DNA of 64,000 nt. It comes from a bacterium. GTDB taxonomy: Bacteria; Zhuqueibacterota; Zhuqueibacteria; Residuimicrobiales; Krinioviventaceae. The notes under the pieces were generated by a model. It saw only the letters and a program-made list of their open reading frames with translations. It was not told the DNA's origin and did not search any database. The position numbers were made by a program, and so were the translations under genes. Shown in pieces: positions 31,922-44,446 of this stretch. Where the stretch lies: the NCBI GenBank assembly GCA_029561455.1, contig JAKQIY010000047.1, forward strand, positions 64,332-128,331, in the 5' to 3' direction. Position 1 is the first letter of the stretch, and every line of letters starts with the position of its first letter.

Positions 31922-32923
31922 ATGAAATTACTGCTTCCCTGTATTATATTTTCACTGCTATTGCATGGTTTGTTGTTCTTAATATTTTCCCGGTTATGGC
32001 TAAGCCAGCCGGTGCGCGAACTGGTCATCGACTTTCGAACAGCAGCAGTAACGCCGGTAGAGGCGGAGATTAGTCCGCTCCAACCCGTAAAGGTAACAGC
32101 GCCGGGAAAATTTACTATAAGCAATGTTTTTCCGGCTAACCGGATCAACCTTAATGAATATAAAACAACCCTGGCCCTGCCGGAATCGGCGCGGCAAGAT
32201 ACGCTGCCGCATATTACCCACGAAGAGTTGTTCATTGTGGATACCGTCTACCTGGCGCGCCCGGATTACAGCAAACTGGCGCTGATGGAATACCGCGACG
32301 GTAGTGTTACTTACCGTCCGGGTTATGACCGACCGGATGGCGGCGTGCAGAATTACAATAATGTTCAGGATCAAATTATCCGGCAAAGCAGCGGGCATCC
32401 GCAGCAAACGGTTGGGGTGCTGGGATTGCTGCAACAGGGCGCTAAGGAACTGGGCAAGGCGCTGGGAGTGACCAAAGAGCCGGGACCAGTCCATCTGGAT
32501 TTCATTCCCGAAGCTAAAGAACTGCAAGCGTTGAATGTAATCTGGCAAAACCGCCAGGCAACCGATGTTATGATCTATGCCAGCTTTGATACCTGTTTAA
32601 AAGTGACGGCTGAAGATTTACGAAAAATTTTGGACGGCCTGGTGGAAAAAGGCTTGCTGGAAAAGAAAATTGTCTCGCCGCGCGACGAGTTTACATTTTT
32701 CGGACTGACCGGCGACAGCGGTATTGAAATGAACAAAACCAATCGCCGCAACCGGGTTTATGAATACACACCCCTGCTTGGTAAAGAAGAAATGCGCGAT
32801 TATTTAAACGCGGTTTTATATCAGCAAAAGCTGGCCGCGCAGGATTCCACGGGCAAGGGGCAGGAGCCGGTATTTCCCGATATTCAGAGTTTGCTGGATA
32901 TTCTTTATAAAGACAATGAATAG
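31922..32923 (+). CDS. TonB-like anchored protein with possible winged-helix C-terminus, unknown
   Basis: 333 residues. The N-terminus MKLLLPCIIFSLLLHGLLFLIF is a single anchor with Ser11 and His15 in the SxxxH spacing that TonB uses to interact with ExbB/ExbD. Next is a polar linker rich in P/V/T (residues about 35-150), then an unusual C-terminus: LDFIPEAKELQALNVIWQNRQATDVMIYASFDTCLKVTAEDLRKILDGLVEKGLLEKKIVSPRDEFTFFGLTG, which by secondary-structure feel resembles a winged-helix domain (helix-turn-helix then wing). It is divergent from cutA-tonB-exbB-exbD. It may be a second energy transducer or a membrane-bound regulator. No family recognised. Confidence 0.75.
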   Translation: MKLLLPCIIFSLLLHGLLFLIFSRLWLSQPVRELVIDFRTAAVTPVEAEISPLQPVKVTAPGKFTISNVFPANRINLNEYKTTLALPESARQDTLPHITHEELFIVDTVYLARPDYSKLALMEYRDGSVTYRPGYDRPDGGVQNYNNVQDQIIRQSSGHPQQTVGVLGLLQQGAKELGKALGVTKEPGPVHLDFIPEAKELQALNVIWQNRQATDVMIYASFDTCLKVTAEDLRKILDGLVEKGLLEKKIVSPRDEFTFFGLTGDSGIEMNKTNRRNRVYEYTPLLGKEEMRDYLNAVLYQQKLAAQDSTGKGQEPVFPDIQSLLDILYKDNE

Positions 32924-33986: not shown

Positions 33987-34015
33987 AAAACAATATAGAG
34001 CCAAATTTTCTTTTA
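33987..34015. repeat. 29-bp direct repeat, copy 2
   Basis: AAAACAATATAGAGCCAAAT, then TTTCTTTTA. It overlaps the last three bases (stop codon) of lptG, so the repeat end supplies the TAA stop of that gene. This suggests a past insertion or exchange reset the 3' boundary of the gene. Confidence 0.55.
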
Positions 34016-35089
34016 TTTCGGCGCTTTGATCAGCGCATAGATCCCGCCAATGGCAAAAATAATATTGGCGATCCAGGCGGCAATTAGTGGTTGAATGTGC
34101 CCGTTATGGCCCATGGTTTGGAAAGTTTTAACAATTCCAAAATAGACAAAACAAATGGCCAGCGAGATGCCGAACCCGGACATGGCGCCGCCGCGCCGTT
34201 TGCGCGATGACAGCGGCGAGCCAAACAGTACAATGATAAAACTGGCAAACGGCACAGATATTTTCAAATACAAGTCCACCAGCCACTGATCGGGATTGCC
34301 GCCATTGATCTTAATTACATGGATAAATTCTTTTAATTCCTTGTACGACATTTCTTCGGCGCGTTTTAATACTTTGGCAAAATCTTTAGGGCGCAGGTTT
34401 TCATTCTCTAAAATTTTTTGTTCAAAAGGAACCGCCGTTTCCTTTCCGTCTGTAAAGACTCGTTCATAGCCGCTATATAAAACCCACTGGCTGTCCGCCC
34501 AGACCATTTTTTGCGCATCGAGCCGATAGATCAGCTCTTCGCCGGCAAATTTTTTTATGCTGATCCGGTTACCGGTCAAGGTGGCGGCGTGGAAATAGCG
34601 CATACTGATAAGCCGATCCTGATCGTCGCGCATGTAAACATTGTTGATGCGTTTGCGCCAGGCTTCGCGTTCTTTTTCCAGGTATTCGTCGTTTATATAT
34701 TCCCTTTTCTCGCTGGCGCGCGGCACCACAAACTCGCCAAACACCAGGGCAAACAGGCTGATGACAAACGAAATAATAAAGATCGGCAGTAAAATCCGGT
34801 ACAGCGACAGCCCGGATGTCTTCATGGCGGTAATTTCATTACGGCGCGCCATATCGCCGGTGCTGAATAAACTGGCCAGCAGCATGGCCACCGGCAGGGT
34901 AAGCACGATGATATAGGGCATTGAATACAGGTAAAATTTCAAAATAATCAGGTTGGGGACGTCGTGTTTTATAAACACATCCAGTCTTTCAACCAGGTCG
35001 ACAACGACAAAAATCGTGATAAAGGCCACCAGGGCGAAAAATACAACCCCAAGAAATTTTCTGGACAGATATTGGTCTAGTATTCTCAT
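34013..35089 (-). CDS. lptG: LptG-like lipopolysaccharide transport permease (YjgQ)
   Basis: 358 residues from the ATG at 35089; an in-frame extension upstream would run into the preceding gene. Six membrane helices in two groups of three around a periplasmic beta-jellyroll: MRILDQYLSRKFLGVVFFALVAFITIFVVVDLVERLDVFI, MPYIIVLTLPVAMLLASLFSTGDMARRNEITAMKTSGLSLYRI (broken here by length limits into the three known helices), then LYLKISVPFASFIIVLFGSPLSSRKRRGGAMSGFGISLAICF. This is the LptF/LptG family, part of the LptBFG ABC exporter that lifts LPS from the inner membrane. It ends at a small repeat and lies 4 bp after the fused LptF gene, so they are one unit. Confidence 0.88.
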   Translation of the reverse strand: MRILDQYLSRKFLGVVFFALVAFITIFVVVDLVERLDVFIKHDVPNLIILKFYLYSMPYIIVLTLPVAMLLASLFSTGDMARRNEITAMKTSGLSLYRILLPIFIISFVISLFALVFGEFVVPRASEKREYINDEYLEKEREAWRKRINNVYMRDDQDRLISMRYFHAATLTGNRISIKKFAGEELIYRLDAQKMVWADSQWVLYSGYERVFTDGKETAVPFEQKILENENLRPKDFAKVLKRAEEMSYKELKEFIHVIKINGGNPDQWLVDLYLKISVPFASFIIVLFGSPLSSRKRRGGAMSGFGISLAICFVYFGIVKTFQTMGHNGHIQPLIAAWIANIIFAIGGIYALIKAPK

Positions 35090-35093
35090 ATTA

Positions 35094-37868
35094 TTATACT
35101 GTTTTTTTGCGCCGTTTAATAATTTTCTGGAAAAATGACTGAATGGAATCCCAGTGAATAAAAGTGGCTTCGTGAATAGAGTGGATGACCAGGTAAATGC
35201 CACCAATGCCGACAATAATATCGGCCAGCCACATGGCAATGAATGGGCTGATCATACGGTTGTCGGCAAGTTCCTCGCCGGCGATCAATGACGCCCAGAA
35301 TAACAGGAAAAATCCGAAACTGATACCGCCGGCCAGCGCCAGGTTGCCCTTGCGCGACATGATGCCCAGCGGCGCGCCGACCAGTACAAAGACAATACAG
35401 GCAAACGGAATGGAATATTTTTTATGCACTTCAACTAAAAGTTTATAGTTTGCCTGTTCATAATTGTCCAGCACATTGATTTCCGCGGTAATCTGCTGCT
35501 TTAAACGCAGGTTGTCCTGCCGCAGGCGAGAGAGAAAGCGCTGCCTGGCATAAAGCGTAGTTACCCTGTTATTGCTCCCGGCTTGGGTGGCGATACCTTC
35601 CAGCGAATCGATAGGCAATCCGTCCGGCAGGTATTTATCGAACCAGGCGGTTATAATTTGCTCCATCCTCTGGCCGCGCTCAAAGATCAGCGCGTCGTTT
35701 TCTTTTACTTCGGCCATCATCATAGCCGAGCTCTTTTCGCGGTCGCCGCGATATTCGCTGTCGCTGCGTTCCAGGGCCATATTGGGGATCTGGATGGAAA
35801 GCTTTTGCTCCGGAAAGGTCAGCCGGGTATATTGTTCCATTTTTTCCAGGTCCAGGTCGTGCATTTCTCCGTCATAGAGCATTAAAACCAAAGCCCCGGC
35901 GGCAGGATTGCTGTATATTTTCCCTTTTTTGGCAAAAATATATTTACTTTTATTTTGCTCCCGGTTATCTTCGATGACTACCGCTTCTACCCAGGCGGTA
36001 TCGGATTTTTCGGTGATTTTCTGCACCAGGATATTAATATCCGGAATATCTTTCATAACCACCCCGGCTTCCAGGTTCAGGGTGGGCCGGGTTCTGGCAA
36101 TATCGGAGGCCAGCAGCCGGCTGCGGTGGTTAAAATCCGGCAATACATTGTTATTGAACCAAACCAGCCCCACAGCTAACCCAATTGAAGCGATAAACAC
36201 CGGCAGGATCATGTGAATGATGCTGACGCCCCCGGCTTTCATGGCGGTAATTTCGTTATCGCCGGACAGCCGGCCAAAGGCCATGATCGTGGCAACCAGC
36301 ACCGCCATGGGCACCGCCAGGGCGACGATCCAGGCCAGGTTCAGGAAAAAGAATTCCATGATCAGCCCGAAATCCAGCCCCTTGCTCAGGATTCTACCCA
36401 ACTCGCGGAAGACCAGGTTCAACAGGAACACCAGGGTGATCACACTCATGGCAAAAATAAAGGGCCCCAGATGTTCGAGCAGGATATACCGGCCGAGGAT
36501 GAACTGTATTTTCCAGGTGATCTTTAATCCGCGCAGGGAAAACAGGATCAGTACGAGTCCTGCAAAGCCAACCAGGATATTGGCCAGCCACATCGCCCAG
36601 AAAGGACTGAACAGGCCGCTGTCGGCAAGCTGTTCGCCGGCGATAAGTGTAACCCAGTACAACAGGAAAAAGCCGAAACTGATCCCCCCGGCCAGCGCCA
36701 TGCCGCCGCGGCGGGTCATCATGCCCAGCGGCGCGCCGATCAGCACAAAGACGATACAGGCAAACGGCAGCGCATATTTTTTGTGTACTTCGACCGCCAG
36801 GTTGTTATTGGCTTTATGAAATTGTTGTAAAACGGTGGTTTCGGCAGTGATCTGCTGTTGTAAGAGTATATTGTCGTGGCGCAGACGGGCAAGCCGGCGG
36901 GCCTTCTCTGTGACGCTGTGCGATTGCGAAAATAACGGCTGCCCCGCTTGGGCATTATCGTCATTTCCGGCCATTATAACTCCCTGGGGAAGCAATCCGG
37001 TGAAATACTGGTCAACTAGCCGAGCAATGCGGGACTGCCTTTCGTTGAGCAGCAGGTTATTGGCTTTGATTTCCTTGCGTAATACAGCAACGTTTTTTTC
37101 ACGGTCGCCGCGATACCCGGCGTCATCCTGGTTGCGGTACAAATCGGGCAGGGCAATGGTAATTTTTTGTTCGGGAAAGGTCAGCCGCGTATAATGTTCC
37201 ATGTTATCCAGATCCAGTTCGTGCATTTCGCCGGCGAATAAATGCAAAACAATGGAACCGGTTTGCGGCGAGGAATAGATCTTGCCGCTTTGCGCAAAGA
37301 CATACTTGCTTTTTTCAGCAACGCGGTTATCTTCAATGGTAACCGCCTCTACAAATGCAGTATCGGCTTGTTGCTGAATTTTTTGCACCAGGATATTCAG
37401 GTCGGGAATGTCTTTCATCACCACCCCGGCTTCCAGGTTCATTGCGGGGCGCCGTCCGGCGATTTCTATAGCCAGCAAGCGACTTTTATGATTGAATTCG
37501 GTTAAAACATTATTATTAAACCAGATCAGCCCCGCAGTGAGGCCGGCGGCGGCGATCAATACGGGAACGAGCATATACGGCATACTCACCCCGCCGGCTT
37601 TCATGGCGGTTACTTCATTATCGCCAGCCAGGCGGCCAAACGCCATAATTGTGGCAACCAGCACTGCCATTGGCGCCGCCAGGGCAATGATTGACGCCAT
37701 GTTTAACCAGATGAATTGTGCAACCAGCCGGAATTCCAGACCTTTATTCAAAAACCTGCTCAATTCACTAAAAAACAGGTTCAATAAAAAGACCAGGGTA
37801 ATAATGCCCATGGCGAACAGAAATGGTTTAAGGTGTTCTTTTAAAATATAGCGCCACAATGTAAACAT
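35094..37868 (-). CDS. Double LptF-like permease (two LptF units fused in one protein)
   Basis: 924 residues, about two and a half times the family norm. Residues 1-453 and 455-924 each make a complete LptF/LptG-type permease: RYILKEHLKPFLFAM against RYILLEHLGPFIFAM, PMAVLVATIMAFGRLAGDNE against PMAVLVATIMAFGRLSGDNE, LEAGVVMKDIPDLNILVQKI against LEAGVVMKDIPDINILVQKI, VHKKYALPFACIVFVLIGAP against VHKKYSIPFACIVFVLVGAP. The halves are similar along the whole length, indicating an in-frame tandem duplication. No Met or ribosome-binding site occurs at the junction (near residue 453), so it reads as one chain. Each half also carries an added periplasmic segment of some 100 residues with coiled-coil character. 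With LptG 4 bp downstream, the cell would have three permease units. Confidence 0.9.
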   Translation of the reverse strand: MFTLWRYILKEHLKPFLFAMGIITLVFLLNLFFSELSRFLNKGLEFRLVAQFIWLNMASIIALAAPMAVLVATIMAFGRLAGDNEVTAMKAGGVSMPYMLVPVLIAAAGLTAGLIWFNNNVLTEFNHKSRLLAIEIAGRRPAMNLEAGVVMKDIPDLNILVQKIQQQADTAFVEAVTIEDNRVAEKSKYVFAQSGKIYSSPQTGSIVLHLFAGEMHELDLDNMEHYTRLTFPEQKITIALPDLYRNQDDAGYRGDREKNVAVLRKEIKANNLLLNERQSRIARLVDQYFTGLLPQGVIMAGNDDNAQAGQPLFSQSHSVTEKARRLARLRHDNILLQQQITAETTVLQQFHKANNNLAVEVHKKYALPFACIVFVLIGAPLGMMTRRGGMALAGGISFGFFLLYWVTLIAGEQLADSGLFSPFWAMWLANILVGFAGLVLILFSLRGLKITWKIQFILGRYILLEHLGPFIFAMSVITLVFLLNLVFRELGRILSKGLDFGLIMEFFFLNLAWIVALAVPMAVLVATIMAFGRLSGDNEITAMKAGGVSIIHMILPVFIASIGLAVGLVWFNNNVLPDFNHRSRLLASDIARTRPTLNLEAGVVMKDIPDINILVQKITEKSDTAWVEAVVIEDNREQNKSKYIFAKKGKIYSNPAAGALVLMLYDGEMHDLDLEKMEQYTRLTFPEQKLSIQIPNMALERSDSEYRGDREKSSAMMMAEVKENDALIFERGQRMEQIITAWFDKYLPDGLPIDSLEGIATQAGSNNRVTTLYARQRFLSRLRQDNLRLKQQITAEINVLDNYEQANYKLLVEVHKKYSIPFACIVFVLVGAPLGIMSRKGNLALAGGISFGFFLLFWASLIAGEELADNRMISPFIAMWLADIIVGIGGIYLVIHSIHEATFIHWDSIQSFFQKIIKRRKKTV

Positions 37869-38212: not shown

Positions 38213-41200
38213 ATGAGTTGTTTTTTTAAAACCGCAACACAACGAGTGCTGTTACCGCTGCTATTTTGTTTCGTTCCAGGGGTAATGTTTTACACCGATT
38301 ATGTAAATGCCCAAACGTTGATATATCCGGCTATTGGCATGCGTATGACTACAGTGTATGATCCGCGCGTTAATATCGTCGAAGAACAGCGTTTTATGGG
38401 TTTGCATAAAGACGGAATGCGTTCGCCGTTGTTAAAGAATACTTTGGGTAAAAAGCGCACCGTTGAAATCGACACTACCGGGCAGAATATCAATTTTACG
38501 GAAAAGCTGGGTGATTTTGATATTATGCTGGCCAATTATTTGTCCCTGGAAGACTATATTCAATCGCGGCGCGATTACAAGATCAACGACGCCTGGATTC
38601 AAACCACCGTAAGTAAATTGACTGAAACGACAACGACAGGCGGCGGCGGCGGTTTTCGCATCGATATACCGGTGGAAATTAAAAGCAAGGCATTTCAAAA
38701 AATATTCGGAACCGGCACAGTAGGGCTCGATGTCAGCGGCGAAATCAACATCAAAGGCGGGTTTCGCAACGAAAAACGCTCCGAGGCCAAGACAGCGTTA
38801 AACCGCGGCTCCGACAATAATTTTAAAATGGAACAAACCCAGCGTTTCCAGGTGCAGGGACGCATCGGCGACAAAGTCAAGATCGGCATCGACCAGGACT
38901 CGGAACGTACTTTTGATTTTGATAATAATATCAGCCTGAAATACGAGGGGTATGAAGACGAGGTCATCCAATCCATTGAGGCGGGGAATATAGCGCTGTC
39001 GCTGCCGGGCACCCAGTTTGTGACCTTTGGCGGCAAAAGCAACGGCCTGTTCGGCATTAAAACCGCCGCCACCATCGGCAACCTCAAATTGACCGCCATT
39101 GCCAGCCAGGAAAAAGGCGAAAAGAAAAAGCTCTCTCTCAAGGGCGGCGCTTCGGAAGAGGCTTCGCGCATCGAGGATACTCAATATAAGCGCGGCATCT
39201 ATTTCTTTATCGACGAGTATTACCGGGAAAATTACATCAACCGCACTGCGGACGGCAACCTGACTTATGAACCTGGCCGTGAAATTGTCCAGTACGAGTT
39301 GTATAAAGCCGGGCCCGGTTATCAGCAAAGATATACCGAATCGATTCATGGCTGGGCATTTGTGCCTTCCGAATATGACACCCTTGATTATATAACCGAA
39401 GTGGATACCACTAAGGAAAGACGTAACCTGGTCAAGGGGTATTATATCCGCATGGAAAAGAATGTCGATTACGACATCGATGAACGATTGGGGTATATCC
39501 GGTTGCGGCAGCGGCTTGGTGATGATGAAGTGCTGGCCATTGCTTATAAAGACGCCGACGGTCGGCAACGGGGTTCGCTCGATGTTGATACGGAAACTAA
39601 ATTATTGTATTTACGCATGTTAAAAAATACCAGTCCCCGCCCGGCGGACAAGACTTGGGACCTGGAGTGGAAAAACGTCTATGATTTTGGCCGTGGCACG
39701 CCCAAAGACGGTTTTGAAATGCGTATTTTCTTTAAACCGGCCTCCGGCGACCCCCAGGAAACCACCGAAGTTGGCGGCGTGAAAAAAACCTGGCTGGAAT
39801 TTTTCGGCCTGGATAAAAAAGACCTGAACGGCGCCAGTACCCCCGATAACCTGGTGGATGACAACCCGGCGTTGATTAATTTTTCTACCGGCGAGGTGTT
39901 TTTTCCTGATCTGCGTCCCTTCGACCCGGTCGGTGATAACTTTAGTAAAATATACCCGGCCGATTTGTTAGCCCCGGCCTTGTACGATACTACCGTGCAG
40001 GCTGTTATTAACGCGCAGAGTCATTTTTATATCGAGGTGAATTCCAAACGCGCCAGTTCCCAATACAGCCTTGGCATGAATGTTATTGAGAATTCTGAAG
40101 AGGTAACCCTGAACGGCTCCCGCCTGAAATCAGGCACCGATTATACCATCGACTATTTTTCCGGGCAGTTGCGGATTTTGAATGAAAACGCCCTGGCCGC
40201 CAACGCCAACCTGGAAATTTCTTACGAGAGCAACCAGCTTTTCCAGATCGATAAAAAAACCGTTATGGGCGCGCGGGCCGAATACGGCTTGTGGGGCGAC
40301 AGCTTTATCGGCGCAACATTTTTATACCTCAATGAACGCACCCTTGATCAAAAAGTCCGCGTCGGCAAGGGCCCGATGCGTAATATGGTGTGGGATGTGA
40401 ATACGTCGCTCTCCGCCGAACCTTATTTTTTGACCCGTATGGCAAACCTGTTGCCGTTTGTGGATTCGCGGGCGAATTCTACCATAAAATTCGAAGGCGA
40501 ATTTGCGCAGATCATTCCCAACCCCAATACCCGCAACAATGAATATACCGGCGATAACGACGGGGTGGCCTACATCGATGACTTTGAAGCGACCAAGCGC
40601 GAAACCCCCATCGGGATAGTGCATCAAAGCTGGGAATATTGTTCACCCCCGGTTGGGAAATATCAATATGAACCCAAAGACAACCGGACACTGTTAAACC
40701 GGGCCGGGATGTTTTATTTTACTCCTTATACCCCGTATCCGATCAATCAAATCTGGCCGAACCGCGATTTAAACGCCAATGTTAACCAAACCACCAACAT
40801 CCTGGTGATGGAGTTTACCCCGGTCGATACGATTCCTGGTGTTGATGTTAAAGACACCTGGAACGGTATTCAGAAATGGTTGTCTTCCGGTTTTTCCAAC
40901 CAAACCGAAACTAAATATATTGAAATCTGGGTGGCTGGCGATAGCAGCGGCACCATGCACATCGACCTTGGGCAAATTTCCGAAGATATTATCCCCAACG
41001 GCAAATATGACACCGAAGACAAGCTGATCGATGGTATGCGCAACGGTTTGCTGGATGATAATGAAGATATCGGTCTGGATGGAATGGGTGATAAAGATAG
41101 CAGGGCAACTGCTGCCGGCGGCGATTTTTGGGATTTGAATAATAATGGCGTTAAAGAAGCGGGAGAACCTTTCAGCAGCGATAATTATAGTTATAATGTG

Positions 41201-44200
41201 CAATTAGCGGAAAATGATCCTAAAAAATACCGCCGGGTGAATGGTACTGAAAATAATAAAGATTCCGGCGGTTTGCGCGTTCCCGATACCGAAGATTTGA
41301 ACGGTAACGGCGACGTGGATATGTCCAATAATTATTTCGAGTATTCCTTTTCATTAAAACGCGACCATGCCGATACCATGTACATTGCCGGAAAAAGTAT
41401 CAGTAAAAAAACCGGTGAAGATTTTCACTGGCGGCAATATCGGATTCCCATCAATGCCCCTGATAATATTTTGAAAAAGATCGGCAGCCCGGATTTATCA
41501 TTGATCGAGTACATCCGTGTTTGGGTAGATGGATTTGAAACACCCGGCCTGCATAGTGTCTGGATCGCTGAAATTAACCTGGTCAGCAGCGACTGGAAAG
41601 AAATGGGTATCTCCAGTCCCGCCAAGCCGGATTCATTTATTGTGGATAACGATTCTACAGTAACCATCACAGTGATCAATACCCATGACAACCCGGAATA
41701 TAAAGCTCCCCCGGGCGTGCAGGGCGAAGTTGACCGTATTACCCAGGTTATAGCCAGAGAACAATCGCTGGTTTTAAAGGTCGATAAATTAATGCCTGGC
41801 TATTCCGGGATCATTGAAAAAACTTTTTACGAGGCGCAGGATTATATTAATTACCGCACCCTGAAGATGTTTGTGTATGGCAAAGACACCTTTGGCCGCC
41901 ATATTACGCGTGATTCCAGCAAAGTCGAGTTCTTTTTGCGCATGGGATCGGACCGGAACAACTATTATGAGATCCGGCAGCCGGTGTATGAGGGCTGGAA
42001 AAATAATAATGTTGAAGTGGATTTAATTGCATTATCCCAGATGAAGGTAAGTTCCGATTCCACCTGGTTCGATCCGGAGAATCCAGCAATTAAAATCTTG
42101 TACAAAGATTTAGGCAACGGCAAATCCTGGCTGGTAAAAGGCAAACCGGCGCTGCGCAACATCCGTATGTTGATCGCCGGGGTGAAAAACAAAGGGTATG
42201 ACGATCTTGAAGGCACAACGGAAGCGTTGCAGGAATTTACCGGTGAAGTGTGGCTTAACGAAATGCGCCTTTCCAATGTTAAAAAGGACAAGGGCATTGC
42301 TTTGCGCAGTCGTCTGGATTTTGGTTTGGCCGACCTGATCCGCTTTAACGGCGAATTGAATAAAATGGACGCCGACTTTCATAATGTTGCCCAGCGGTTT
42401 GGAACCGGTGATAATGAAGTTAGCGGCAGTTTTAGCACCAGTGTTAATGTGGAAAAGTTTTTGCCTCCGCAACTGGGATTGTCTTTGCCGGTCAGCGTCA
42501 ATTATTCCAAAAGTGAATCCACACCCAAATATATACCGGGAACCGATATTGAAGTGACCGATGATTTGCCGGAAGCAACCCTGGACTCGATACGGTCGAT
42601 TGATGAGAAGCGGGGTATGAATGTTTCTTTCGGCATTAATTCCAGGTCACAAAATTTTCTGGTTAAACATTTATTGACCAAACTGAAGGCCAGTTATAGC
42701 CGTAACGAGAGCGAGGGCAGCGATTCGCGGACCCAGTTCCGGACATCCATGTCGGAATCCGGCAGCCTGACCTGGGGGCTGGCGTTCGGCACCAATACAT
42801 TTATCAAACCGTTCAAATGGATTGGAACCAACAGGTTTTTACTCAAATTATCGGATATGAAACTGTATTATGCCCCGCAAACTTTAACCACAGCTCATTC
42901 CGGGGCGCGCAGTATCAACGAGTCCATGACCCGCACCGGGGTTTCGTCCAGTAACCGCTCGTTTATATTAAACCGCAGTTATGGCATTGGCATGAAGATT
43001 ACGGAAACACTGTCTTATGATATAAAGCGCAGTTATGTTCATGATGTTCGCGGCATCAATTCAGATCTTTTGCAGGAGGAACTTAAGGAAAACAGGATCG
43101 GGTTACTGACGAGTATCGATAACAGTTTATCGCTTAAATATTCGCCGCAAATTTTCTCATGGTTTACCCCGAACCTAACCTACACTACGGGTTTTAAGTA
43201 TGGATTCAATCGCCAGCAAACCCTGGCGCCGCGCAGCGCTACCCAAAACCGCACCTTCCAGGGCAGTGTGAATTTAAATATAGCGACTCTTTTTAAAGCT
43301 GTTTACCGACCAGGAGCCAGCAAAGGGCCCAAAGCAGGCGGCGCACCCCCGGGACGAACGGCGCCCGGCGCGGTTCCTGGCGCAGCCCAGACCGGCACGC
43401 AGCAAAAAAGCGGCTCAAAATTTAACTTTTCAACAATGGGTATTTTATCCGGTTTCTTTAATGCCTTTGAACCGTTCAGCGTATCGTATAATACAAGGGA
43501 TAATATTGCAAAATATGGAATTAAGGGAATGCCCAGTAATAGTTTCCAGTATGGCTTTACTCAGGACCCCGGTGTTGGTATTGAAGAGGCTGTTTCCGGC
43601 GGCGCCGCCGCTAATTCATCGGCTAGTTTTGACCGCGGTAGTAGTAGTATAAATAATACCACGTCCGTGTCTTCCGGTATTAATATTTCCCGCAATGTCA
43701 GCATCAGGTTGAAATATGATGATTCCTATTCGCTGAATGCCAATGGTAAAACCACCACCGGCCAGCGTTCCAAAAGCTGGATGAAGATCGGCGAAACCGC
43801 TATGGTATTCCCGGGCTGGACGGCCAGTGTGCGCAGTCTGGAAAAACTGCCTTATGTAAGTAAATATTTTCAGCGCGTTACCCTCGATCATAATTTTTCC
43901 GGCCGGGCTAATGAAACGTTTGAAATGGTAAAGACAGGCAATATAGAGAAAGAACATGTAACCAAGGAAGACAAAGACTCCAGTTTCCGGCCGCTCATCG
44001 GTCTCACCATGTCTATGAAGAACGGCATTTCGATGTCGGTGCGTTATAATAAATCGTTTAAAGAAGCTACCAACACTTCCTATAGCAAGTCGATTCAGAG
44101 AAATATTAGCAACGATCTTTCCATAACCGCCAATTACTCAAAAAGAAGCGATTTTCGCATTCCCTTGCCGTTCCTGCGTAATAAAAAGCTGAAAAACAAT

Positions 44201-44446
44201 GTCGATATTGCCCTCACTTTCAGCACCGGGTTAACCAAACAGGAAGACAGTAAAGACGGCAAAAATTTCCAGGTCAAAGCCGAAACCACAAAGTGGATGT
44301 TCAAACCGGATATCAGCTATAGCTTTAGCGAGCGGGTTAAAGGCGGCATGTTTTTTGAAATCGGCAAAACCAGCAATAAAATGACGGGTGAAACCAAATA
44401 CAAGGAATTTGGACTGAATGTTAACATCCAAATCCGCGGGAATTAA
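38213..44446 (+). CDS. sprA: SprA, T9SS outer-membrane translocon protein
   Basis: 2077 residues, in the range of SprA/Sov, the giant outer-membrane barrel that forms the T9SS channel. Signal peptide ends VNAQ, followed by the N-terminal block YPAIGMRMTTVYDPRVNIVEEQRF. Two characteristic parts are present: GDNDGVAYIDDFEATKRETP (residues about 780-800) and, at 960-1050, acidic Asp/Asn-rich loops (DLNNNGVKEAGEPF, DLNGNGDVDMSNNYFEYSF) that resemble calcium-binding turns of the family. The last 700 residues are repeated amphipathic strands of the barrel. A Gly/Ala/Pro-rich insertion (about 1700-1735, GASKGPKAGGAPPGRTAPGA) is unusual. It starts the secretion block. Confidence 0.9.
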   Translation: MSCFFKTATQRVLLPLLFCFVPGVMFYTDYVNAQTLIYPAIGMRMTTVYDPRVNIVEEQRFMGLHKDGMRSPLLKNTLGKKRTVEIDTTGQNINFTEKLGDFDIMLANYLSLEDYIQSRRDYKINDAWIQTTVSKLTETTTTGGGGGFRIDIPVEIKSKAFQKIFGTGTVGLDVSGEINIKGGFRNEKRSEAKTALNRGSDNNFKMEQTQRFQVQGRIGDKVKIGIDQDSERTFDFDNNISLKYEGYEDEVIQSIEAGNIALSLPGTQFVTFGGKSNGLFGIKTAATIGNLKLTAIASQEKGEKKKLSLKGGASEEASRIEDTQYKRGIYFFIDEYYRENYINRTADGNLTYEPGREIVQYELYKAGPGYQQRYTESIHGWAFVPSEYDTLDYITEVDTTKERRNLVKGYYIRMEKNVDYDIDERLGYIRLRQRLGDDEVLAIAYKDADGRQRGSLDVDTETKLLYLRMLKNTSPRPADKTWDLEWKNVYDFGRGTPKDGFEMRIFFKPASGDPQETTEVGGVKKTWLEFFGLDKKDLNGASTPDNLVDDNPALINFSTGEVFFPDLRPFDPVGDNFSKIYPADLLAPALYDTTVQAVINAQSHFYIEVNSKRASSQYSLGMNVIENSEEVTLNGSRLKSGTDYTIDYFSGQLRILNENALAANANLEISYESNQLFQIDKKTVMGARAEYGLWGDSFIGATFLYLNERTLDQKVRVGKGPMRNMVWDVNTSLSAEPYFLTRMANLLPFVDSRANSTIKFEGEFAQIIPNPNTRNNEYTGDNDGVAYIDDFEATKRETPIGIVHQSWEYCSPPVGKYQYEPKDNRTLLNRAGMFYFTPYTPYPINQIWPNRDLNANVNQTTNILVMEFTPVDTIPGVDVKDTWNGIQKWLSSGFSNQTETKYIEIWVAGDSSGTMHIDLGQISEDIIPNGKYDTEDKLIDGMRNGLLDDNEDIGLDGMGDKDSRATAAGGDFWDLNNNGVKEAGEPFSSDNYSYNVQLAENDPKKYRRVNGTENNKDSGGLRVPDTEDLNGNGDVDMSNNYFEYSFSLKRDHADTMYIAGKSISKKTGEDFHWRQYRIPINAPDNILKKIGSPDLSLIEYIRVWVDGFETPGLHSVWIAEINLVSSDWKEMGISSPAKPDSFIVDNDSTVTITVINTHDNPEYKAPPGVQGEVDRITQVIAREQSLVLKVDKLMPGYSGIIEKTFYEAQDYINYRTLKMFVYGKDTFGRHITRDSSKVEFFLRMGSDRNNYYEIRQPVYEGWKNNNVEVDLIALSQMKVSSDSTWFDPENPAIKILYKDLGNGKSWLVKGKPALRNIRMLIAGVKNKGYDDLEGTTEALQEFTGEVWLNEMRLSNVKKDKGIALRSRLDFGLADLIRFNGELNKMDADFHNVAQRFGTGDNEVSGSFSTSVNVEKFLPPQLGLSLPVSVNYSKSESTPKYIPGTDIEVTDDLPEATLDSIRSIDEKRGMNVSFGINSRSQNFLVKHLLTKLKASYSRNESEGSDSRTQFRTSMSESGSLTWGLAFGTNTFIKPFKWIGTNRFLLKLSDMKLYYAPQTLTTAHSGARSINESMTRTGVSSSNRSFILNRSYGIGMKITETLSYDIKRSYVHDVRGINSDLLQEELKENRIGLLTSIDNSLSLKYSPQIFSWFTPNLTYTTGFKYGFNRQQTLAPRSATQNRTFQGSVNLNIATLFKAVYRPGASKGPKAGGAPPGRTAPGAVPGAAQTGTQQKSGSKFNFSTMGILSGFFNAFEPFSVSYNTRDNIAKYGIKGMPSNSFQYGFTQDPGVGIEEAVSGGAAANSSASFDRGSSSINNTTSVSSGINISRNVSIRLKYDDSYSLNANGKTTTGQRSKSWMKIGETAMVFPGWTASVRSLEKLPYVSKYFQRVTLDHNFSGRANETFEMVKTGNIEKEHVTKEDKDSSFRPLIGLTMSMKNGISMSVRYNKSFKEATNTSYSKSIQRNISNDLSITANYSKRSDFRIPLPFLRNKKLKNNVDIALTFSTGLTKQEDSKDGKNFQVKAETTKWMFKPDISYSFSERVKGGMFFEIGKTSNKMTGETKYKEFGLNVNIQIRGN

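Follow-up and report, generated by a model that had tools for sequence, protein, structure and literature searches.

The window, by which we mean the whole 64,000-nucleotide stretch of DNA analysed here, contains a gene (FF) in which two LptF-type permeases are joined in a single chain, followed by a separate gene for LptG. The lptF gene has been duplicated and its copies fused; the two halves of FF evolve at unequal rates, and the faster one, half 1, has kept its F identity and its LptB-coupling residues. To our knowledge, LptF and LptG have so far been described solely as the one-plus-one halves of an asymmetric pump. In the reading that we prefer, to which we give a probability of roughly 0.55, lptF was duplicated in tandem and fused in frame, half 2 and LptG would make up a normal core, and half 1 would be an accessory F module. 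The features of the locus, in window coordinates, are the following.

36510..37868 (-): half 1 (aa 1-453), a complete, fast-evolving LptF-type permease with six TM segments and a periplasmic jellyroll
35097..36509 (-): half 2 (aa 454-924), a complete, slow-evolving LptF-type permease corresponding to the single-copy LptF of relatives
36501..36533 (-): the junction, a cytoplasmic linker (about aa 446-456) joining TM6 of half 1 to the N-terminal helix of half 2
36810..37148 (-): a hairpin of helices on the periplasmic side of half 1, at about aa 241-353 between jellyroll and TM4, with model helices at 260-292 and 318-384
35436..35786 (-): the corresponding periplasmic hairpin in half 2, at about aa 695-811, with model helices at 714-746 and 768-837
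34013..35089 (-): lptG, a separate gene of 358 aa, scoring 251.6 bits against TIGR04408 and thus above its cut-off of 240
38213..44446 (+): sprA/sov, the type IX secretion translocon, a divergent neighbour (TIGR04189, 896.7 bits) that marks the locus and lies outside the transporter

FF is a single open reading frame of 924 residues (35094-37868, minus strand) that begins with ATG and is free of stops. A Pfam search matched the LptF_LptG family (PF03739) twice within it, with 509.5 bits in total, and each half covers profile positions 1-351 and passes the gathering cut-off of 27.9 (256.6 bits for half 1 and 266.8 bits for half 2). The halves align with each other over their full length, with 61% identity across 447 columns and three small gaps, and either half shares only about 21% identity with LptG. 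One frame, two full-profile matches and this degree of identity bear out the covalent LptF pair put forward in the preliminary description of this DNA. Both halves score higher against TIGR04407 than against TIGR04408 and on these scores, together with the tree described below, they are of the F type and not the G type. Neither reaches the TIGR04407 equivalog cut-off for LptF of 230 bits (167.3 and 170.1 bits), and the single-copy LptF of relatives also falls below it (176 to 191 bits); we attribute the low scores of the halves to the divergence of this phylum and to the hairpin rather than to the fusion. The fused chain exceeds the cut-off (323 bits) only through the sum of its two domains. 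Half 2 is 73% identical to the LptF of a congeneric genome (G037).

The two halves meet without an internal start, as had been remarked earlier: ATG, GTG and TTG codons are absent from aa 430 to 473, and the nearest is M474, which lies within TM1 of half 2. A Shine-Dalgarno-like word was looked for at the junction and was not found. In the alignment the C-terminal tail of half 1 is mostly gone, ending at ..LKITWK where the single LptF of relatives continues for about 15-30 residues, and half 2 opens with IQF at the position of the relatives' start codon. Because the tail is shortened and half 2 lacks a start codon, the fusion looks like the result of a deletion that took out the tail together with the stop and start codons, more than of plain stop loss. 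Exact matches between the two halves reach 22 nt at most, so that near-identical repeats are unlikely to have been joined wrongly here. LptF has six TM segments with both termini in the cytoplasm (PMC5548808), and a tandem chain is topologically possible for that reason; residues 445-456 of FF were non-helical, with pLDDT under 50, in an AlphaFold2 model.

As the preliminary description stated, lptG lies 4 nt behind the fusion, whose stop codon occupies 35094-35096 and is followed by the LptG ATG at 35087-35089. The assembly (5.85 Mb, 98.8% complete) holds, according to a domain search, no LptF/LptG gene beyond FF and LptG, and the three permease units counted earlier, two F and one G, are its sole domains of this kind. 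Where an LptB2FG exporter has one LptF and one LptG, this genome codes for a pair of F units beside a single G unit. The LptB ATPase is present as a single match above cut-off (359.2 bits) on contig C61, so that three permease units face one ATPase gene. When lptA, lptB and lptC were looked up elsewhere in the genome, one LptC and one LptA-like gene were located on the same contig, beside lptB. LpxC is present, which bears indirectly on the predicted transport of lipopolysaccharide. The LptD model PF04453, which also misses Bacteroides among the controls, had no match in the genome.

The periplasmic segment with coiled-coil character that had been described as an addition to each half is real and helical, being modelled by AlphaFold2 as a helical hairpin that continues into TM4. 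It is not special to FF, however, since it is found in single-copy LptF across the phylum: LptF here generally spans about 1250-1450 nt for 351 profile positions (LptG about 1045 nt), and an equivalent hairpin appears in the control model of the ordinary LptF of genome G038. Between the halves it is the fastest-changing region, with 37% identity. FF and the control, an F-stop-G read-through of G038, were each predicted with the same seven alignment rows; larger alignments placed all single LptF sequences on half 2 only and were left out. In the models of both halves, helices and jellyroll strands follow one another as expected. The model of half 2 superposed on LptF (5x5y_F) with a Z score of 25.5 over 347 residues, and the jellyroll of half 1 matched those of LptC, LptA and LptD with Z of about 8. 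The pTM was 0.42 both for FF (mean pLDDT 68) and for the F-G control (mean pLDDT 73), in which the pairing is known, and the models were accordingly read for the fold of each half and not for how the halves pair.

For comparison, 82 genomes of the phylum were searched in addition to the source genome, and LptF/LptG domains were found in 79 of the 82. Listed open-frame lengths run across one stop, and the relevant genomes were checked on the DNA. Among the matches listed, a double F in one frame occurs in the source genome only, of 83 in the phylum. The suggestion that the double form might be fixed in a lineage did not hold, as the congener G037 has a single LptF and LptG and no other phylum match listed has two F units in one frame. 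Separate genes in relatives do not thereby make the fusion an error. Around the locus in G037, gene order is the same over seven or more genes on each side, from an M28 peptidase and sprA to tolQ/exbB, and the presence of single genes at this matching position speaks against a two-gene arrangement that was duplicated and misread. On sequence evidence FF is a real, unusual variant of LptF, found in one assembly, with a predicted function for its additional half.

A tandem of separate genes, F1-TGA-ATG-F2, precedes LptG in a genome of the same order and another family (G034; L064 8274-11003, minus strand). Its frame, listed at 910 aa, was considered as a second FF fusion and rejected, as the DNA reads 472 aa, TGA and 437 aa. 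Frames of 830-888 aa in G038, G039, G015, G070 and G071 were likewise rejected as fusions, all of them being F-stop-G (F-TAA-G in G038 and G039). The sprA/sov gene adjoins the locus also in G034, G036, G037, G039, G043, G047 and G053. In most of the order's genomes inspected, lptFG lies beside divergent sprA/sov, and the two systems, for lipopolysaccharide export and for type IX secretion, may share a regulatory region. On the other side, convergent to lptG, a conserved 333-aa protein (31922-32923, plus strand) has an N-terminal TM segment and a weak Penicillinase_R-like match; it is 36-42% identical to its counterparts in G037 and G034. LptF and LptG lie on different contigs in G041, where LptF (L066 9310-10687, plus strand, and L067) is split over two frames, probably by a sequencing frameshift. 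Family f13 of the same class carries an extra, unlinked LptF of about 670-700 aa (L120 97-2202, minus strand, in G081), and a long unlinked LptF also occurs, judged by frame length, in G074, G075, G076, G078 and G080. In L120 the permease is followed by a Roadblock/LC7-like region (PF03259, 21.7 bits, just below the cut-off of 23).

In a maximum-likelihood tree of 43 LptF sequences the two halves are sisters (100/96) and stand next to the LptF of G037 (100/100). This placement suggests that the duplication postdates the split from G037, although not firmly, as a duplication before the split with subsequent loss in G037 was not rejected (p-AU 0.16). The F2 copy of G034 has the longest branch in the tree (2.76) and is located elsewhere than half 1; forcing the two together was weakly rejected (p-AU 0.04), and two independent LptF duplications, in the source genome and in G034, are likely. 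The two genomes are alike in that one LptF copy is fast and the other ordinary. Losses common to half 1 and G034 F2 (W59S, D135, R138 and R128) were considered as a shared signature and set aside, their overlap being at about chance level.

On the same tree the branch of half 1 measures 1.09 changes per column and that of half 2 measures 0.18, a roughly sixfold difference in rate. LptG shows no acceleration (0.15, compared with 0.23 in G037). Half 2 retains 82 of the 83 LptF columns that are invariant in the order and half 1 retains 73, its ten lost residues including the phylum's W59, while single-copy LptF sequences left out in turn show 0 to 7 deviations. In the order, F and G can be told apart at 44 columns. 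Half 2 resembles F at 40 of them; half 1 resembles F at 35, G at three (all conservative swaps) and neither at six, and convergence of half 1 on LptG was looked for at these columns and not found. Residues Y7, F27, L63, E85 and M89 of half 1 align with Y6, F26, L62, E84 and M88 of E. coli/Klebsiella LptF, of which Y6, E84 and M88 meet LptB and F26 and L62 lie at the cavity (PMC5548808). The coupling-helix residues are thus present in the alignment of both halves, as Y7, E85 and M89 in half 1 and as their equivalents in half 2, and half 1 also retains the arginine-containing loop that precedes TM5 (cf. PMC6744409).

The hairpin, the loops and TM6 carry most of the changes in half 1, and TM1, TM4, TM5 and the coupling helix carry fewer. 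Identity between the halves is 72-81% in TM1, TM2, the coupling helix, TM4 and TM5, 64% in TM3 and 54% in TM6. Their codons differ at 56% of third positions and at 25% of first and second positions, and we estimate dN at 0.32 and dS, which is near saturation, at 1.5 (dN/dS about 0.2). Half 1 has zero stops where random mutation to equal divergence would give a mean of about eight, an absence that proves little alone because half 2 relies on the frame of half 1. Taken together, half 1 looks like a sequence under relaxed but real purifying selection.

We propose that a lineage-specific tandem duplication of lptF was followed by fusion in frame. Half 2, LptG and two LptB subunits would then form an ordinary LptB2FG lipopolysaccharide extractor, an assignment suggested by normal rates and intact residues. 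Half 1 would be an extra F-type permease, tethered on the cytoplasmic side to the N terminus of half 2 and still built for coupling to LptB. It might dock beside the half 2-LptG core, or it might recruit another LptG together with another LptB dimer, in which case one FF chain would bridge two LptB2FG units. We infer that half 2 pairs with LptG and that half 1 is made and used; the likeliest account is that FF represents a recent, presumably still functional add-on to a normal pump.

Of the alternatives, the one that survives best, while remaining doubtful, is a double transporter in which each half of FF would serve as the LptF of its own LptB2FG unit, so that a chain would engage two LptG and covalently yoke two pumps. 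The F identity and LptB-coupling residues kept by half 1, and the little-changed TM1, TM4 and TM5, would suit such an arrangement, and with lptG beginning 4 nt behind the fusion, translation re-initiation or coupling is possible. The fast evolution of half 1, however, and a TM6 that differs from that of half 2 at 46% of positions, would be odd for two halves with equal jobs.

Somewhat less probable again, and in our view unlikely, is that half 1 is non-functional or nearly neutral, its frame being kept because a stop or frameshift there would silence the essential half 2. Its sixfold rate fits this, as does the lack of a separate start for half 2, through which selection on half 2 alone would keep half 1 open; given the ten lost order-invariant residues, W59 among them, half 1 could be a decaying passenger. 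Against this, divergence is far higher at third codon positions than at the other two, at the low dN/dS given above, and a neutral copy would not have to show TM and coupling regions so much better conserved than its hairpin.

The preliminary description also offered a pseudo-dimer in which the two F halves pair over LptB2 and the transporter works without LptG. The two permeases of LptB2FG are arranged with TM1 of either one opposite TM5 of the other (PMC5548808), and the termini of FF are cytoplasmic, so the geometry is conceivable; but LptG is present, adjoins the fusion and is conserved under normal constraint, half 1 has not drifted towards LptG identity, and half 2 has hardly changed. 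This is the least supported of the three options raised in that description, the others being a different stoichiometry and two parallel half-transporters, either of which may apply; we regard the pseudo-dimer as very improbable. The least credible explanation of all, an assembly or sequencing artefact in which two tandem genes were misread as one, could appeal to the single assembly and to the two in-frame LptF genes of G034, with only TGA and then ATG between them, but a single-base error in a stop codon would not explain a junction at which half 1 has lost its tail and half 2 has no ATG, GTG or TTG, and no exact repeat longer than 22 nt is available between the halves.

Returning to the preferred reading of a normal core with an accessory F module, the natural combination of FF, LptG and one LptB gene offers a ready test of the role of each half and of the number of permeases that one bridge can hold. 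As a more tentative suggestion, FF may provide two functional F sites that yoke two LptB2FG pumps (LptB4, FF, LptG2), or belong to a transporter of three permeases whose core, half 2 with LptG, is gated by half 1. If either of these were true, FF would represent a covalently altered stoichiometry of the lipopolysaccharide extractor. Because an extra LptF arose repeatedly in the phylum, fused here, in tandem in G034 and unlinked in family f13, our results suggest that F is the half that is open to duplication and alteration.

Outside the phylum, two permeases were found in 35 of the 39 genomes of the L033 phylum (one in G116 and in G117, none in G123 and three matches in G122), and two is also the commonest count among 75 spirochaetes. 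Some genomes among G118-G123 and several spirochaetes have one or no LptF/LptG match, or matches at contig ends, and are probably incomplete assemblies. A selection of frames longer than 700 aa was read in the two outside phyla: those of G189, G149, G087 and G093 are separate genes, that of G127 is one permease, and that of the spirochaete G136 (L125 376-2883, plus strand) is a fusion. Like FF, the 836-aa G136 frame contains two LptF_LptG domains, but it joins permeases of the F and the G type, with only 23% identity between them, and does not represent a duplication of one permease. Elsewhere in its assembly, G136 has a third permease of 899 aa (L126 320-3016, plus strand), which carries a polar-rich insert of about 390 residues. 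No LptF fusion or duplication was found described in titles or abstracts by a full-text literature search whose coverage lies outside most subscription journals.

Within the phylum, the G034 tandem resembles FF in having two LptF before one LptG, at a locus beside sprA and with one copy fast; it differs in that the genes are separate, the fast copy is the downstream one and the duplication is independent on the tree. The family f13 protein (L120) is likewise an additional LptF, but it is unlinked, is not fused to another permease and, at about 700 aa, is lengthened by an extra region at its C terminus. The known system closest to FF is LptF of the LptB2FG exporter (PF03739, TIGR04407), which we take to be represented by structures 5x5y, 6mit, 6mjp and 9dok. 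Each half of FF has the full domain, the fold and the LptB-coupling helix of this protein, together with an adjacent lptG. In contrast to standard LptF, FF carries two F units per chain, half 1 is without most of its C-terminal tail, and there is an extra helical hairpin of about 110 residues that is common to the LptF of the phylum.
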